A stretch of DNA of 64,000 nucleotides from Gemmatimonadaceae bacterium (GTDB lineage Bacteria > Gemmatimonadota > Gemmatimonadetes > Gemmatimonadales > Gemmatimonadaceae): assembly GCA_019637445.1 (NCBI GenBank), contig JAHBVS010000001.1, positions 2,019,586 through 2,083,585 on the forward strand. Reading direction: 5' to 3'. Below the pieces are notes generated by a model that saw nothing but the letters and a program-made list of their open reading frames with translations, had not been told where the DNA came from and ran no database searches. This document shows positions 48,518 through 54,696 of this stretch, piece after piece; the stretch's first letter is position 1, and every line of letters begins with the position of its first letter. The translations under genes were made by a program, and so were the position numbers.

Positions 48518-50134
48518 GTGACCGCTTCACGCAGGGACTTCCTCCAACAGTCCGCCGCCGCCGCGGCTGCCGTCGGGCTCATCGGCCACCGCGCGCCGGC
48601 GCAGGCCCCCGACTCCGCCCCGTGGCAAGGCGACAGCAGCCATCGTGAACTCGCGCTGCGCGCCATCGATGCCGCCAAGTCCGCCGGCGCCGACTATGCC
48701 GACTGCCGCATCTCCAGCGCCCGCTCGCAGAACCTCGGCACCCGCGAGCGCCGCGTCACCAACATCGGCGACAATGAGACGTTTGGTTTCGGCGTGCGCG
48801 TGCTGGTGGGCGGGTCCTGGGGATTCGCCGCGTCCAGCGAACTCACGGTCGATGAGATCGCGCGTGTGGCACGGCAGGCCGTGGCCCAGGCCCGCGCCAA
48901 CCGCGTGGCGATGGTGAAGCCGCTGGAGCTGGCGCCCATCCATCACCCGCCCGTGCCGAACGGGACTTGGCGCTCGCCTGCGCGCATCGACCCCTTCACG
49001 GTCGCCATCGAGGACAAGGTTGCCTACCTGCTCGAGGCCAATGCGGCAGCTATGGAGGCCGGCGCACGCTTCGTGAACTCGCAGATGTTCTTCCTCAAGG
49101 ACGAGAAGACCTTCGCGAGCAGCCTCGGCACCGTCACGCAGCAGACGATCTTCCGCGCCCAGCCGGGCATGAATATCACGATGGTCTCGGCGGACAACCG
49201 CGATTTCCAGACGCGACAGTCCACCGACATCCAGCCCCGTGGCCTCGGCTACGAGCACGTGCTCGACGCCGACCTCAAGTCGCACGCCGCGCGATGGGTC
49301 GAGGAGGCGCGGCAGAAACTCAGTGCCAAGCCGGTCGAGGTCGGCCGCTATGACCTGATCCTGCACCCCACGCATCTCTGGCTCACCATCCACGAGAGCA
49401 TTGCGCATCCCACGGAGCTCGACCGCGCCTACGGCTACGAGGCCAACTATGCCGGCACCAGCTTCCTCGCGCCGCCGGAGGACTACCTCGGCAAGTTCCG
49501 CTACGGCCCGGACTTCATGAACGTGGTGGCCGAGCGCAGCACGCCGGGGTCGTTGTCGGCCGCCGGCTGGGACGACGAGGGTGTGAAGCCCGAGGACTTC
49601 CACATCATCAAGGACGGCATCTTCGTGGACTACCAGACCACGCGCGAGCAGGCGATGTGGCTGGACTGGTGGTACAAGCAGCGGCAGATGCCCACGCGCT
49701 CGCACGGCTGCTCGTATGCCCAGACCTGGGCCGACGTGCAGTTCCAGCGTATGCCCAACGTGAACCTGATGCCGGGCGAGGCGGATGTCTCCTGGGACGA
49801 CCTCATCGCCGCCACGGAGAATGGCATCGCCATCGTCGGCGACGGCTCGTTCTCGATTGACCAGCAGCGCTTCAACGCCCAGTTCGGTGGCCAGCTGTTC
49901 TATGAGGTGAAGAACGGCAAGATCACCGGCATGCTGAAGGACGTGGCCTACCAGATGCGCACGCCGGAGTTCTGGAACGCGATGGACATGATCGGCGGCA
50001 AGGCCAGCTACGAGATGGGCGGCGCCTTCGGCGACGGCAAGGGCCAGCCCTCGCAGTCGAACGCGGTCAGCCACGGCTGCCCGCCCACCCGCCACAAGCA
50101 GATCAACGTGATCAACACCGGGAGGAACGCGTAA
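48518..50134 (+). CDS. TldD-family metallopeptidase with Tat signal (first copy)
   Basis: 538 residues from GTG 48518, preceded by AAAGAGG at 7 bases. The twin-arginine signal is TASRRDFLQQSAAAAAAVGL, with likely cleavage near residue 27. TldD-type zinc motif HESIAH covers 292-297 in LTIHESIAHPTELDRAYG. The late CGK-type cysteine of classical TldD appears as Asp506 in FGDGKGQPSQ. TldD/TldE complexes trim unfolded peptides and mature microcin B17-type RiPPs in the cytoplasm; a Tat signal implies export of this one. It overlaps its TldE-like partner by one base. Confidence 0.88.
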   Translation: MTASRRDFLQQSAAAAAAVGLIGHRAPAQAPDSAPWQGDSSHRELALRAIDAAKSAGADYADCRISSARSQNLGTRERRVTNIGDNETFGFGVRVLVGGSWGFAASSELTVDEIARVARQAVAQARANRVAMVKPLELAPIHHPPVPNGTWRSPARIDPFTVAIEDKVAYLLEANAAAMEAGARFVNSQMFFLKDEKTFASSLGTVTQQTIFRAQPGMNITMVSADNRDFQTRQSTDIQPRGLGYEHVLDADLKSHAARWVEEARQKLSAKPVEVGRYDLILHPTHLWLTIHESIAHPTELDRAYGYEANYAGTSFLAPPEDYLGKFRYGPDFMNVVAERSTPGSLSAAGWDDEGVKPEDFHIIKDGIFVDYQTTREQAMWLDWWYKQRQMPTRSHGCSYAQTWADVQFQRMPNVNLMPGEADVSWDDLIAATENGIAIVGDGSFSIDQQRFNAQFGGQLFYEVKNGKITGMLKDVAYQMRTPEFWNAMDMIGGKASYEMGGAFGDGKGQPSQSNAVSHGCPPTRHKQINVINTGRNA

Positions 50135-51504
50135 TGGCGCCCCGATCCCTACAGGCCGTCGCGCGCTACCTCTCCCGCAGCGAGTGCGAGGCCATCGCCA
50201 AGCGCGTGCTGGGCTTCTCGTCGGCCGACGAGTGCCGCGTCAGCATCTTCAGCGGCGTGCGCGCCAACACGCGCTTCGCGGTGAACCAGATCTCCACCGC
50301 CGGCGACAACTACAACAACGCGGTCACCATCCGCTCGGTGTTCGGCAAGCGCGTCGCCAACGTGACGGTGAATCGGTTGGACGAGGCCGCGCTCAAGGCC
50401 GCGGTCGAGAACAGCGAGCGCATCGCCCGGCTCGCGCCGGAGGATCCGGAACTGCTGCCCGAGCTCGGGCCGCAGTCCTACGAGGATTCCATCGTCTGGA
50501 GCGACGCCACGGCGTCGTTGGAGCCGGATGCGCGCGCCGAGGCGGTGCGGGCGATTACGCAGCCGGCGCAGTATGCGGGTCTCATCTCCACCGGCTACCT
50601 CGAGGCGCAGGCACAGGCCTTTGCGATTGCCAACAGCAAGGGGCTGTTCGCCTACCAGCGCAGCACCGGCTGTGCGTTCACGACCACCGTGCGCACGCCG
50701 GACGGCACGGGCTCGGGCTGGGCAGGCGCCTCGGACAACGACTTCTCACGCATCGACCCGCGTGAGCTCGCGGCTCGCGCCATCGAGAAGGCCCAGCGCA
50801 GCGTGAACCCGGCGGCCATCGAGCCAGGCCGCTACACCGTGGTGCTCGAGCCGACCGCGGTGGCGAACCTGGTGCAGCTGATCGGCGGGGCGCTCAACGC
50901 TCGCAGTGCCGACGAGGGCCGCTCGTTCTTCGCCAAGGCCGGCGGCGGAAACAAGATTGGCGACAAGGTCGTAGATGAACGCGTGACGCTCGTGTCGGAC
51001 CCCTTCGACCCGCGCGTTCCGGCCAACACGGTCGGCTTCGACGGCATGCCGAACGGCAAGACGACGTGGATCGAGAACGGAGTCGTGAAGAACCTCGCCT
51101 ACGATCGCTTCTGGGCGCAGCGCACGGGCAACACTCCGCGCTCGACCGGCGGCACGCTGGCCATGTCGGGTGGCGACACGTCGGTGGAGGAGATGATCCG
51201 CAGCACGGAGCGCGGCTTGCTCGTCACGCGCTTCTGGTACATCCGCGGCGTGGACCCACGCACCATCCTGTTCACCGGCCTCACCCGCGATGGCACCTTC
51301 CTGATCGAGAACGGCCGCGTGACGCGGCCGGTGAAGAACCTGCGCTACAACGAGTCACCCATCTTCATGCTCAACAACGTGCTGGCGATGGGACGTCCCG
51401 TCCGCGTCAGCGCGTCGGAGTCCGGCGGGCCCGGCCAGGCCATCATGGTGCCTCCGCTCAAGGTCCGCGATTTCACCTTCACCTCAATCAGCGACGCCAT
51501 CTGA
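50134..51504 (+). CDS. TldE/PmbA-family protein (first copy)
   Basis: 456 residues. ATG shares one base with the upstream TAA (TAATG). The TldE fold is seen in RFAVNQISTAGDNYNNAVTI, the central GTGSGWAGASDNDF block, AFTTTVRTPD, and the C-terminal FLIENGRVTRPVKNLRYNES. It has no HExxxH, as expected for the non-catalytic partner, and no signal peptide. If the TldD partner is exported folded through Tat, this protein could ride along as a hitchhiker. Confidence 0.87.
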   Translation: MAPRSLQAVARYLSRSECEAIAKRVLGFSSADECRVSIFSGVRANTRFAVNQISTAGDNYNNAVTIRSVFGKRVANVTVNRLDEAALKAAVENSERIARLAPEDPELLPELGPQSYEDSIVWSDATASLEPDARAEAVRAITQPAQYAGLISTGYLEAQAQAFAIANSKGLFAYQRSTGCAFTTTVRTPDGTGSGWAGASDNDFSRIDPRELAARAIEKAQRSVNPAAIEPGRYTVVLEPTAVANLVQLIGGALNARSADEGRSFFAKAGGGNKIGDKVVDERVTLVSDPFDPRVPANTVGFDGMPNGKTTWIENGVVKNLAYDRFWAQRTGNTPRSTGGTLAMSGGDTSVEEMIRSTERGLLVTRFWYIRGVDPRTILFTGLTRDGTFLIENGRVTRPVKNLRYNESPIFMLNNVLAMGRPVRVSASESGGPGQAIMVPPLKVRDFTFTSISDAI

Positions 51505-51505
51505 G

Positions 51506-53125
51506 ATGACTGACCGCCGCGATTTCCTCCGGACCACCGGAGCCGCGGCCGCCGCGATCGCCCTCGCGAGCACGCCACGACGCGCGGGCGCCGCCCCGGC
51601 CCTCGATGACCTGGACCGCTTCCAGAGCGGCGCGTCCAAGGAACTGCTGATGGACGCGATCAACGCCGCCAAGATGGCGGGTGCGGCCTACGCCGACGCC
51701 CGCATCGCGCGCATCCGGCAGAACTTCGTCGTCACGCGTGAGAAGCAGATCGTGAACGTGGTCGACACCGACACCCTCGGCTGCGGTGTCCGCGCCCTCG
51801 TGGATGGCTGCTGGGGCTTCGCCGCCACGAAGGACCTCACCCGCGACGCCGTCACGACCGCCGCCCGCGAGGCCGTGGCCATCGCCAAGGCGAATCGCGT
51901 GGCGCGCGACCGTTCCGTCGAGCTCGCCCCGGTGCGCGCGTATCCCAACGGCACCTGGAAGTCGGCCTTCACCACCGACCCCTTCGAGGTGCCACTGGAG
52001 CAGAAGGTCGACCTCCTGCTCTCGGCGAACGAAGAGGCGATGAAGATTCAGAACGTCCGCTTCGTGAACTCCATCCTCTTCTTCGTAAAGCAGGAGAAGC
52101 AGTTCGCGTCCACCGAGGGGACCGTCACCGACCAGACCCTGGTCCGCAGCTGGCCGCTGTTTACCGCCACGGCGGTCGCTCCCGACTTCTCCGACTTCCA
52201 GAACCGGCAGGGCGTCGAGGCCGCGCCGATGGGGCGCGGCTGGGAGTACGTCCTGCAGTGCGATCTGCCCGGCAACGCCAGGAAGTGGGGCGAGCAGGCG
52301 GTCGAAAAGCTCTCAGCCAAGCCGGTCGAGGTCGGGCGCTACGACCTCGTGCTCGATCCGGGCAACATGTGGCTCACCATCCACGAGAGCATCGGGCATC
52401 CCACCGAGCTCGACCGCGCGATGGGCTACGAGGCCAACTACGCCGGTACCAGCTTCGTCGCGCCGCCGGAGGAGCACCTCGGCAAACTCAAGTACGGCCC
52501 CTCGATGATGAACATCCAGGGCGACCGGACGCAGGAAGGCGCGCTGGCGACCATCGGCTGGGACGACGACGGCGAGCGGCCGGACGACTTCCTGATCGTG
52601 AAGGACGGGATGTTCAACGACTACCAGACGACGCGCGAGCAGGCGCCCTGGCTCAAGGACTGGTATGCGAGCCAAGGCAAGGCCGTGCGCTCGCACGGCT
52701 GCTCGTACGCCGACTCCTGGGGCAGTGTGGCATTCCAGCGCATGCCCAACGTCTCGCTGCTCCCGTCGTCCGGCAACACCAGCTGGGACGACCTCGTGGC
52801 CGGCGTCGACCGCGGGATCGCCATCATCGGCGACGGCTCGTTCTCGATTGACCAGCAGCGCTACAACGCCCAGTTCGGCGGCCAGGTGTTCTATGAAATC
52901 CGCGGCGGCAAGATCGCCGGGATGCTCAAGGACGTGGCCTACCAGATTCGCACGCCAGATTTCTGGAACGCCCTCGACGGACTCGGCGGGCGCGACACGT
53001 ATCGCCTCGGCGGGTCATTCTTCGACGGCAAGGGACAGCCGGGACAGGTCAACGCCGTGAGCCACGGCTCACCGCCGGCCCGCTTCCGCCAGGTCAACGT
53101 GATCAACACCGGGAGGAAGGGATGA
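51506..53125 (+). CDS. TldD-family metallopeptidase with Tat signal (second copy)
   Basis: 539 residues, ATG two bases after the first TldE-like stop. Twin-arginine signal MTDRRDFLRTTGAAAAAIAL, cleavage near residue 29. The metal motif HESIGH covers 293-298. The expected late zinc cysteine is replaced by Asp507 in FFDGKGQPGQ. It is close to the first TldD copy over its whole length (shared ELDRA-GYEANYAGTSF, RSHGCSYA, IGDGSFSIDQQRYNAQFGGQ), so the pair arose by tandem duplication. It probably cleaves peptides in the periplasm. Confidence 0.88.
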   Translation: MTDRRDFLRTTGAAAAAIALASTPRRAGAAPALDDLDRFQSGASKELLMDAINAAKMAGAAYADARIARIRQNFVVTREKQIVNVVDTDTLGCGVRALVDGCWGFAATKDLTRDAVTTAAREAVAIAKANRVARDRSVELAPVRAYPNGTWKSAFTTDPFEVPLEQKVDLLLSANEEAMKIQNVRFVNSILFFVKQEKQFASTEGTVTDQTLVRSWPLFTATAVAPDFSDFQNRQGVEAAPMGRGWEYVLQCDLPGNARKWGEQAVEKLSAKPVEVGRYDLVLDPGNMWLTIHESIGHPTELDRAMGYEANYAGTSFVAPPEEHLGKLKYGPSMMNIQGDRTQEGALATIGWDDDGERPDDFLIVKDGMFNDYQTTREQAPWLKDWYASQGKAVRSHGCSYADSWGSVAFQRMPNVSLLPSSGNTSWDDLVAGVDRGIAIIGDGSFSIDQQRYNAQFGGQVFYEIRGGKIAGMLKDVAYQIRTPDFWNALDGLGGRDTYRLGGSFFDGKGQPGQVNAVSHGSPPARFRQVNVINTGRKG

Positions 53126-54498
53126 GCGCACCCAAGCGACTCCGCGACGGCATTCCGGCGGGAGCGGTGCTCTCCCGCGCGGACGCGCAGGCCATTGCCG
53201 AACGCGTGATGAAGTTCTCCAAGGCCGACGGCATCGACGTGAACCTCGCGTCGAACCACACGACCAACGTCCGCTTCGCCGACAACCAGATGAGCACGGC
53301 CGGCGCGCTGACGGACGGTGGGTTGGTGGTGCAGAGCTGGTTCGGCCCGAAGCACGCGGTGGTGACGACCAACGACCTGTCGGAGGCCAGCCTCCGCCGC
53401 TGCGTGGAGGAGAGCGAGCGTCTGGCGCGCCTCGCGCCCGACGATCCCGAAGCGATGCCCTTGGTCGAGCCGCAGCAGTACCGGCCGGTCGAGGCGTTCA
53501 TCGACGCGACGGCCAACATCGGCGCCGCGGAGCGCGCGCAGGCCGCGATGTCGGCCTTGGGACCGGCGCGCCGCGCCGGCGACCTCAAGGCGGCGGGTTT
53601 CCTCGTGATGGGCGCGAACGCCACCGCGCTGGCCAACAGCGCCGGAATGTTCGCGTACCACAACGGGACGAACGTGAATTACACGCTCACCGTGCGCACC
53701 ACGGACGGCACCGGCAGCGGTTGGGCGGCGGCCGACCATCCCGACTGGCGGCAGATCGACTTCAACGCCGTGTCGTCGCGCGCGATCGACAAGGCGCGCA
53801 GTTCGCGGCAGCCAGCCGCCGTCGAACCCGGTCGCTACACGGTGATTCTCGAGCCGCAGGCCGTCGGCGACCTCGTGCAACTGGTGGCGTTCTACGCCGA
53901 CGCGCGTCTTGCCGATGAGGGACGCTCGCCGTTTTCGAAGCAGGGGGGCGGTAACAAAGTCGGGGAGAAGATCGTCGATACGCGGGTGACGATGTTCTCC
54001 GATCCTGCCGATCCGCAGTTGCTGGCGCAGCCGTTCGATGGCGAGGGCATGCCGCTCGCCCGCCAGGTGTGGATCGAGAACGGTGAACTGAAGCAGTTGC
54101 AGACGTCGCGCTTCTGGGCGAAGAAGCAGGGACGCACGCCAACCGGCGGTGCGACGTCGCTGAAGATGGCCGGCGGTTCGAGTTCGGTGGACGAGATGAT
54201 CCGAAGCACCGAACGCGGCATCCTGGTCACGCGATTGTGGTATTTGCGCGAAGTCGATCCACGCACCATTCTTTATACAGGCTTGACACGCGACGGGACT
54301 TTCCTTATCGAACAGGGAAGAATTTCGCGTTCAATTCGGAATTTGCGGTTCAATGAGTCGCCGTTGTTCATGCTGAACAATCTGGAAATGCTCGGCCGGG
54401 CAGAGCGACTCGCAGGGACGGAAGCAGGTGGCAGCGTGGTGATGCCGGCCCTGAAGGTGCGAGACTTTACGTTTACCAGCCTGTCCGAGGCTGTTTGA
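53122..54498 (+). CDS. TldE/PmbA-family protein (second copy)
   Basis: 458 residues, ATGA overlap with the second TldD. Fold blocks parallel the first copy (NVRFADNQMSTAGALTD, GTGSGWAAADH, FLIEQGRISRSIRNLRFNES). No signal peptide. From about 54235 to the stop, codon choice changes to ATT, TTT, TTG, AAT and AGA, lowering GC relative to the rest of the gene. This stretch carries a TTGACA-17-TATCGA sequence. It ends the four-gene tandem. Confidence 0.87.
   Translation: MSAPKRLRDGIPAGAVLSRADAQAIAERVMKFSKADGIDVNLASNHTTNVRFADNQMSTAGALTDGGLVVQSWFGPKHAVVTTNDLSEASLRRCVEESERLARLAPDDPEAMPLVEPQQYRPVEAFIDATANIGAAERAQAAMSALGPARRAGDLKAAGFLVMGANATALANSAGMFAYHNGTNVNYTLTVRTTDGTGSGWAAADHPDWRQIDFNAVSSRAIDKARSSRQPAAVEPGRYTVILEPQAVGDLVQLVAFYADARLADEGRSPFSKQGGGNKVGEKIVDTRVTMFSDPADPQLLAQPFDGEGMPLARQVWIENGELKQLQTSRFWAKKQGRTPTGGATSLKMAGGSSSVDEMIRSTERGILVTRLWYLREVDPRTILYTGLTRDGTFLIEQGRISRSIRNLRFNESPLFMLNNLEMLGRAERLAGTEAGGSVVMPALKVRDFTFTSLSEAV
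54283..54311 (+). promoter_or_regulatory. Possible internal promoter near the end of the second tldE-like gene
   Basis: A perfect TTGACA (54283-54288), 17 bases, then TATCGA (54306-54311, 3 of 6 to TATAAT). It could drive the 21-residue peptide gene at 54615. The -10 box is weak and the site is inside coding sequence, so confidence is low. Confidence 0.3.
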
Positions 54499-54614: not shown

Positions 54615-54680
54615 ATGGCTGCCAAGAAGAAGAAGGCCGCGAAGAAGGCGACCAAGAAGAAGGCCGCGAAGAAGAAGTAA
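54615..54680 (+). CDS. 21-residue Lys/Ala-rich micropeptide
   Basis: Composed of 13 Lys, 6 Ala and one Thr after Met, built from KKAAKK/KKATKK units like histone H1 C-terminal repeats. AAGGAG at 54601-54606 stands 8 bases before the ATG, an excellent ribosome site. A hairpin at 54697-54732 follows the TAA, so the unit looks deliberate. The ribosome site lies in CTCCTTTAAGGAG, which could self-pair. The peptide should bind nucleic acid or polyanions. It resembles the tail of the NYN protein at 38136-39803. Confidence 0.7.
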   Translation: MAAKKKKAAKKATKKKAAKKK

Positions 54681-54696
54681 GCGGTCCAGCTTCACA

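Follow-up and report, generated by a model that had tools for sequence, protein, structure and literature searches.

Two TldD–TldE gene pairs, four genes arranged head to tail, occupy positions 48518-54498 of the window (the whole 64,000-nucleotide stretch of Gemmatimonadaceae DNA analysed here) and are best explained as paralogous copies of a TldD/TldE metallopeptidase (MEROPS M103) that is exported through the Tat pathway and trims peptides in the periplasm, a reading that we regard as likely. Fold, active-site motif and partner subunit are those of a TldD/TldE peptidase, while the signal for export, the residue at the metal, the order of the genes and the operon setting mark these proteins out as a distinct variant. 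TldD/TldE is generally treated as an intracellular protease, associated with microcin maturation and CcdA degradation and tied by name to DNA gyrase.

PmbA_TldD domains 1-3 were found above the Pfam cut-offs in all four proteins, and the HExxxH motif is confined to the two TldDs (Table 1). The initial annotation had described two pairs in one operon with stop/start overlaps; the two pairs are present and the genes overlap at two of the three junctions (TAATG at TldD1/TldE1, ATGA at TldD2/TldE2), but a 1-bp gap separates TldE1 from TldD2. The N-terminus of TldD1 is MTASRRDFLQQSAAAAAAVGLIGHRAPAQA..., i.e. (M)TASRRDFLQQSAAAAAAVGLIGHRAPAQA, and that of TldD2 is MTDRRDFLRTTGAAAAAIALASTPRRAGAAPA.... 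The GTG start chosen for TldD1 places the RR pair at residues 5-6, matching relatives; a longer reading from a TTG codon was dropped, the GTG having a ribosome-site-like AGAGGA upstream. The pairs are flanked upstream by a divergent gene recognised by eye as a molybdopterin/iron-sulphur oxidoreductase of formate dehydrogenase type, and downstream by a short Lys-rich orf; these neighbours in the window give no pointer to a substrate.

Table 1 Genes, signal peptides and metal-site residues of the two TldD–TldE pairs (positions in the window).
Feature	Position	Strand	Description and basis
TldD1	48518..50134	+	Catalytic subunit, 538 aa, GTG start; Pfam PmbA_TldD 1st/2nd/3rd
TldD1 Tat signal peptide	48518..48607	+	VTASRRDFLQQSAAAAAAVGLIGHRAPAQA, AxA-type end; TIGR01409; signal end by inspection only
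TldD1 HESIAH	49391..49408	+	HExxxH metal-binding motif; sequence
TldD1 Asp506	50033..50035	+	GDGKGQP; replaces E. coli Cys454; sequence and bridging CGKGQP relatives
TldE1	50134..51504	+	Non-catalytic partner; no signal, no HExxxH
TldD2	51506..53125	+	Catalytic subunit, 539 aa; AlphaFold2 model pLDDT 88.7
TldD2 Tat signal peptide	51506..51592	+	MTDRRDFLRTTGAAAAAIALASTPRRAGA, AxA-type end; TIGR01409; AxA by eye
TldD2 HESIGH	52382..52399	+	HExxxH metal-binding motif (His293, Glu294, His298); sequence; invariant in 48 relatives
TldD2 Asp507	53024..53026	+	Predicted third metal ligand replacing Cys454; invariant in alignment; bridging relatives
TldE2	53122..54498	+	Non-catalytic partner; no signal, no HExxxH; AlphaFold2 pLDDT 93.4

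The predicted structures place both kinds of subunit in the TldD/PmbA fold that characterises M103. For TldD2, modelled with AlphaFold2 from 48 relatives, the top PDB matches were to E. coli TldD, with TldE/PmbA ranking lower (Foldseek E 7e-38, TM 0.80), and VIA-align superposed the model on E. coli TldD with Z 35 and an rmsd of 3.1 over ~456 residues. Residues 1-38 were assigned low confidence, which is usual where a signal is joined to a linker. The TldE2 model matched TldE/PmbA/TldD structures, with Thermococcus TldE as the best.

Both TldDs scored above the curated cut-off of the TIGR01409 (TAT_signal) model (24.1 bits for TldD1 and 19.5 bits for TldD2, vs 16.7), which gave no match to TldE1 or TldE2; the Pfam TAT model fell below its cut-off for both TldDs (17.0 and 22.3, respectively, vs 22.7). 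In a strict test for a start-anchored RRx[hydrophobic] motif followed by an uncharged h-region, 81 of 91 non-redundant Asp-bearing subfamily members (defined below) passed, as against 10/429 neighbouring genes of the same loci, ruling out a chance RR motif. The column-by-column consensus around the RR pair reads S-R-R-D-F-L-K, and its retention at this frequency across phyla is more than chance would give. Among the Asp-bearing members failing the test, several show RK motifs or a charged h-region. In several relatives the h-region is followed by a lipobox (e.g. GIAGC, GVAGC, FLAAC), as expected of exported Tat lipoproteins. TatC was identified in the source genome (195.7 bits) and in 37/40 genomes of relatives. 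The proposal of the initial annotation that both TldDs, and neither TldE, carry a Tat signal is thus strongly supported by the conservation of this pattern across phyla, and TldD is very probably a Tat substrate. No report of the localisation of any protein of this subfamily was found in the open literature.

The source genome (3.35 Mb, 100% complete) contains one further TldD/TldE pair, at C1:1513-1516 kb, whose TldD begins MTSRRDFLATAGLTASALALASRQVGA and is likewise Tat-tagged. No other TldD-family gene, and so no untagged TldD, was found in this complete genome, meaning that every TldD of the organism is Tat-tagged. Genomes of the same genus generally retain the tandem pair; no subfamily member was found in three of its small genomes (1.8-2.3 Mb), indicating that the enzyme is not essential there. 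Within Gemmatimonadota, the tagged type is present in most TldD-bearing genomes of the window's family, and several sister-family genomes carry a canonical-type TldD instead.

A search of one-per-species genomes with the three TldDs confirmed at least 582 relatives, and 78 loci were retrieved from Gemmatimonadota, Acidobacteriota, Bacteroidota, Xanthomonadaceae, SAR86-like Gammaproteobacteria, Myxococcota and others. The subfamily was delimited among HExxxH-bearing family members, from the relatives' and further genomes, by score against a window-type profile: canonical TldDs reach at most 91 bits, nearly all subfamily members exceed 300, and two plasmid proteins lie at ~177. Tat-bearing TldDs, which the initial annotation thought might exist in related genomes, thus form a widespread subfamily represented in many phyla. 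A quick-search maximum-likelihood tree (118 rows; core without the signal) put canonical TldDs and the present subfamily on opposite sides of a fully supported branch, with untagged Cys forms mostly basal within the subfamily (Cys or Asp here being the residue at the third metal ligand, see below). As to whether Tat-bearing members form a clade, also raised by the initial annotation, they are concentrated in one, with several losses and with separate gains elsewhere. By parsimony there were ten changes of Tat state, five rows having been assigned by hand after reading by eye (in L161 the motif lies upstream of any plausible start); the signal was present at or near the origin of Asp, followed by losses and by separate gains in canonical-type Acidobacteria. 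For the ligand, parsimony gives a single change from Cys to Asp and a single return to Cys; the return falls in a clade made up of L111 and two Actinobacteria, and these two Actinobacteria also lack a signal. With only two ligand changes on the tree, no statistical claim of linkage between Tat and Asp is possible.

TldD1 and TldD2 belong to different Gemmatimonadota clades, both supported (17 and 13 rows, respectively), and each clade also contains TldDs from further tandem loci (L019, L027), which makes the duplication in the window an old one. Tandem pairs of Bacteroidota and Xanthomonads lie elsewhere in the tree and arose separately; arrays in these groups include tandem D-E-D-E, D-D-E and three-copy types. 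In tandem loci D1 and E1 share nearest neighbours, as do D2 and E2, implying that pairs were duplicated as units, and the tree of D closely parallels that of E (mirror-tree r 0.94, a value inflated by shared species history; 0/2000 permutations as high). The initial annotation took the duplication to suggest two substrate classes, which may be the case; the window pairs themselves are old, co-duplicated and separately conserved paralogues. About 149 TldEs adjoining subfamily TldDs (some loci overlap), their N-termini being taken at the earliest start close to where TldD ends, open directly with domain 1, and a convincing signal is absent from all of them, making a signal on TldD and none on TldE the rule. 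An apparent hydrophobic leader in the TldE of L050/L105 precedes a better ATG.

The metal ligands of E. coli TldD are His262, His267 and Cys454; Glu263 acts as the base, and Lys456, Glu270 and Asp272 play supporting parts (PMC5810440). The counterparts in TldD2, His293, Glu294, His298, Glu301, Asp303 and Lys509, are invariant over the 48 relatives, as is Asp507 at the position of Cys454. A Cys third ligand in the clamp, usual in M103 but not defining, is absent, the D-G-K motif of the two TldDs having Asp506 or Asp507 at this point; an Asp variant was already remarked for Gemmatimonas in 2017 (PMC5810440) and, such variants being accepted in the literature, the absence of Cys is no ground for excluding membership of M103. 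Profile alignment with hhalign set Cys454 one residue off Asp507, beside a three-residue gap, so that the register of the two residues rests on bridging members of the subfamily, in which NCGKGQP stands at the point where the rest have xDGKGQP. On this basis Asp507 is predicted to take over from Cys454 as third metal ligand. Among 211 sequences typed, 127 Tat-tagged members have Asp, whereas 12 untagged subfamily members and the canonical TldDs have Cys. Exceptions occur in both directions: six Asp-bearing members have no Tat signal (L054, L060, L069, L081, L222, L223), one Tat-tagged member has Cys (L111), and three canonical-type Acidobacteria TldDs (L091, L093, L230) have a Tat-like start yet keep the Cys ligand. 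TatC is present in all six genomes of the untagged Asp-bearing members, ruling out loss of the signal through loss of the Tat system and showing that Asp does not demand export. Asp is thus neither strictly needed for export nor strictly caused by it. An Asp ligand would nevertheless suit an oxidising compartment, which may be the reason for the change. A periplasmic disulfide between two SHGC motifs was found to be unsupported, a weak result as the pattern used missed many rows.

In the mechanism that we favour, TldD would fold and take up its metal in the cytoplasm, then close with a signal-less TldE into a hollow heterodimer, and the folded complex would cross the inner membrane via Tat on the single signal of TldD, with TldE as hitchhiker. 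Removal of the signal (in some relatives, lipidation at the lipobox cysteine) would leave the complex in the periplasm, where it may trim the unfolded N-termini of peptides or damaged proteins able to thread into its cavity. With a His-His-Asp rather than a His-His-Cys site, the metal would have no thiolate ligand liable to oxidation in the periplasm, an oxidising compartment. Sec translocates unfolded chains, so that a pair with one signal would be beyond it. TldD and TldE enclose a cavity containing the active site, and the E. coli complex is ~65 Å across (PMC5810440); Tat moves folded proteins of 20-70 Å as well as signal-less hitchhiker partners (PMC4273604), so a folded dimer of this size fits and a single TldD signal would be enough for the loaded heterodimer. 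Of the initial suggestion of a folded protease exported through Tat, perhaps with its partner as hitchhiker, the targeting draws strong support from conservation across phyla, and the hitchhiker is the simplest reading of the signal-less TldE, whose co-export we consider quite probable; action on envelope peptides, also suggested there, is a possibility.

Restriction of the signal to TldD would also be consistent with export of TldD alone, which would then function beyond the membrane as a homodimer or together with some other partner, TldE remaining cytoplasmic (e.g. as a chaperone or proofreading partner that is let go before export). An active TldD homodimer of Sulfolobus, cited by Ghilarov et al. 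(PMC5810440), and the D-D-E arrays of some relatives, with two Tat TldDs and one TldE, are in keeping with this; E. coli TldD, however, requires TldE for activity and is unstable as a homodimer (PMC5810440), and retention and co-duplication of TldE with TldD in nearly every locus make export of TldD alone improbable. Less probable still is a reading in which the RR segment serves to anchor the protein in the membrane, or is a relic, and the enzyme does ordinary TldD/TldE work on the cytoplasmic side. The source genome offers no other TldD for the cytoplasmic job, the six close relatives without the segment still have the enzyme, and h-regions are short in a few members, but neither the retention of SRRDFLK across lineages and phyla nor the gain of lipoboxes is expected of a relic, and Xanthomonads have an untagged canonical TldD alongside the tagged ones. 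In the main text of one paper on a periplasm-enriched proteome of Xanthomonas citri, TldD is absent.

The remaining alternative shares export with the preferred reading and differs in substrate, the main job being to mature one particular secreted peptide or complex (e.g. a DUF4159-MoxR-BatA module, or a RiPP-like precursor). Canonical TldD/TldE matures microcin B17 (PMC5810440), and some or all of DUF4159, MoxR AAA ATPase, DUF58 and BatA genes precede or follow the pair in Xanthomonadaceae, on one contig from Myxococcota, in Bacteroidota and in a single genome from a different Gemmatimonadota family. Several DUF4159 proteins beside pairs have a Tat-like start (MDRRACLRWLAAAASAAALPAWAQA, MPTRRQFATAAFAGAASLLAPG), which counts in favour of export, others having R-A or R-K for RR. 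However, no DUF4159-MoxR-type neighbour was found in the window or in most Gemmatimonadota and Acidobacteriota loci, none of the four DUF4159 genes in the source genome adjoins a TldD/TldE pair, and no conserved precursor or substrate gene was seen near pairs outside the DUF4159-MoxR operon. We therefore regard specific maturation as unlikely, though less so than the two readings above, and general trimming of periplasmic peptides as a main job for which the case is evenly poised. Beyond the preferred reading, the Tat signal and the Cys-to-Asp change may have arisen at about the same point of the tree, giving an oxidation-proof exported ‘pencil sharpener’ for quality control of envelope peptides or proteins that works within a MoxR/Bat module in several phyla and fully replaces the cytoplasmic enzyme in the window's genome; this wider picture is tentative and falls somewhat short of probable.

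The window proteins share with E. coli TldD/TldE (M103; PDB 5NJ5, 5NJC) the fold, HExxxH, equivalents of Glu270, Asp272 and Lys456, and a non-catalytic TldE, but differ from it in sequence (~20% identity), the Tat signal of TldD, Asp for Cys454, tandem pairs in one operon and a longer C-terminal half. The Gemmatimonas-type TldD of Ghilarov et al. (2017; PMC5810440), from the same phylum and with the same Asp for Cys, evidently belongs to the same subfamily; that paper gives one sentence to the ligand, and its main text is silent on export, partner signals, distribution and operons. In S. maltophilia, an uncharacterised operon encoding a MoxR-like ATPase as well as two TldDs is expressed at a lower level in biofilm (PMC7688217) and appears to match the Stenotrophomonas D-D-E-DUF4159-MoxR-DUF58-BatA locus of the present survey; there TldD is cited as a gyrase inhibitor and Tat is unmentioned. 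In the known Tat hitchhiker complexes, HybO-HybC of hydrogenase 2 and PaoABC (PMC4273604), one signal-bearing subunit likewise accompanies signal-less partner(s) in a cofactor-dependent folded complex; these are redox enzymes, while the window pair is a compartmentalised metallopeptidase with predicted co-export. The Asp ligand in Gemmatimonas was thus already known, and the predicted Tat export of a TldD subfamily appears to be new: no title or abstract among open full-text matches, most of them represented by title or abstract, reports export of TldD/PmbA.

Should an export-adapted form indeed be present in hundreds of genomes from several phyla, the label ‘modulator of DNA gyrase’ is wrong for them. 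The Cys-to-Asp swap would be a natural experiment on the adaptation of a metal site to an oxidising compartment, and the pairs would represent a processing enzyme new to the periplasm as well as a Tat hitchhiker pair outside redox metabolism, both directly testable. Recurrence of the tagged form in many phyla points to a widespread, unstudied version of TldD/TldE that may act outside the inner membrane.

Twin-arginine signals and metal ligands do not sort together throughout the relatives' loci. On the canonical, E. coli-type side of the TldD tree, three Acidobacteria copies (L091, L093 and L230; genomes G134, G132 and G450) carry a Tat-like RRDF N-terminus and keep the Cys ligand; they represent a separate origin of tagged TldD. 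TldDs of close relatives L054, L060, L069, L081, L222 and L223, whose genomes encode TatC, have the Asp ligand and no signal, and are possibly forms that have returned to the cytoplasm. Untagged, very divergent TldD/TldE pairs with the motif CGKGEP, adjoined by ABC transporter genes, lie on Pseudomonas and Burkholderia plasmids (L237, L238).

In the window's genus, the genomes G025, G564 and G569 are small (1.8-2.3 Mb) and no family member was seen in them, as would fit gene loss in the course of genome reduction. The TldDs of L084, on a contig labelled Williamsia, cluster with Bacteroidota copies and the gene order resembles theirs; the contig is probably misbinned.

In several phyla a DUF4159-MoxR-DUF58-BatA operon is tied to predicted exported TldD/TldE, and DUF4159 of these linked operons frequently has a Tat-like start; an open-literature search found no mention of DUF4159.

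Coordinates of operons and of a short ORF
Feature	Locus	Position	Remark
DUF4159-MoxR-DUF58-BatA operon	L074	10985-14711	
DUF4159-MoxR-DUF58-BatA operon	L194	7969-10554	
DUF4159-MoxR-DUF58-BatA operon	L208	7710-9436	
DUF4159-MoxR-DUF58-BatA operon	L081		
Short Lys/Ala-rich ORF MAAKKKKAAKKATKKKAAKKK	Window	54616-54681	Shortly after TldE2; ribosome-site-like stretch

In L072, L074, L199, L203 and L208, two intact Tat-tagged TldDs precede one TldE, a gene order which suggests that one partner may be common to two catalytic subunits.
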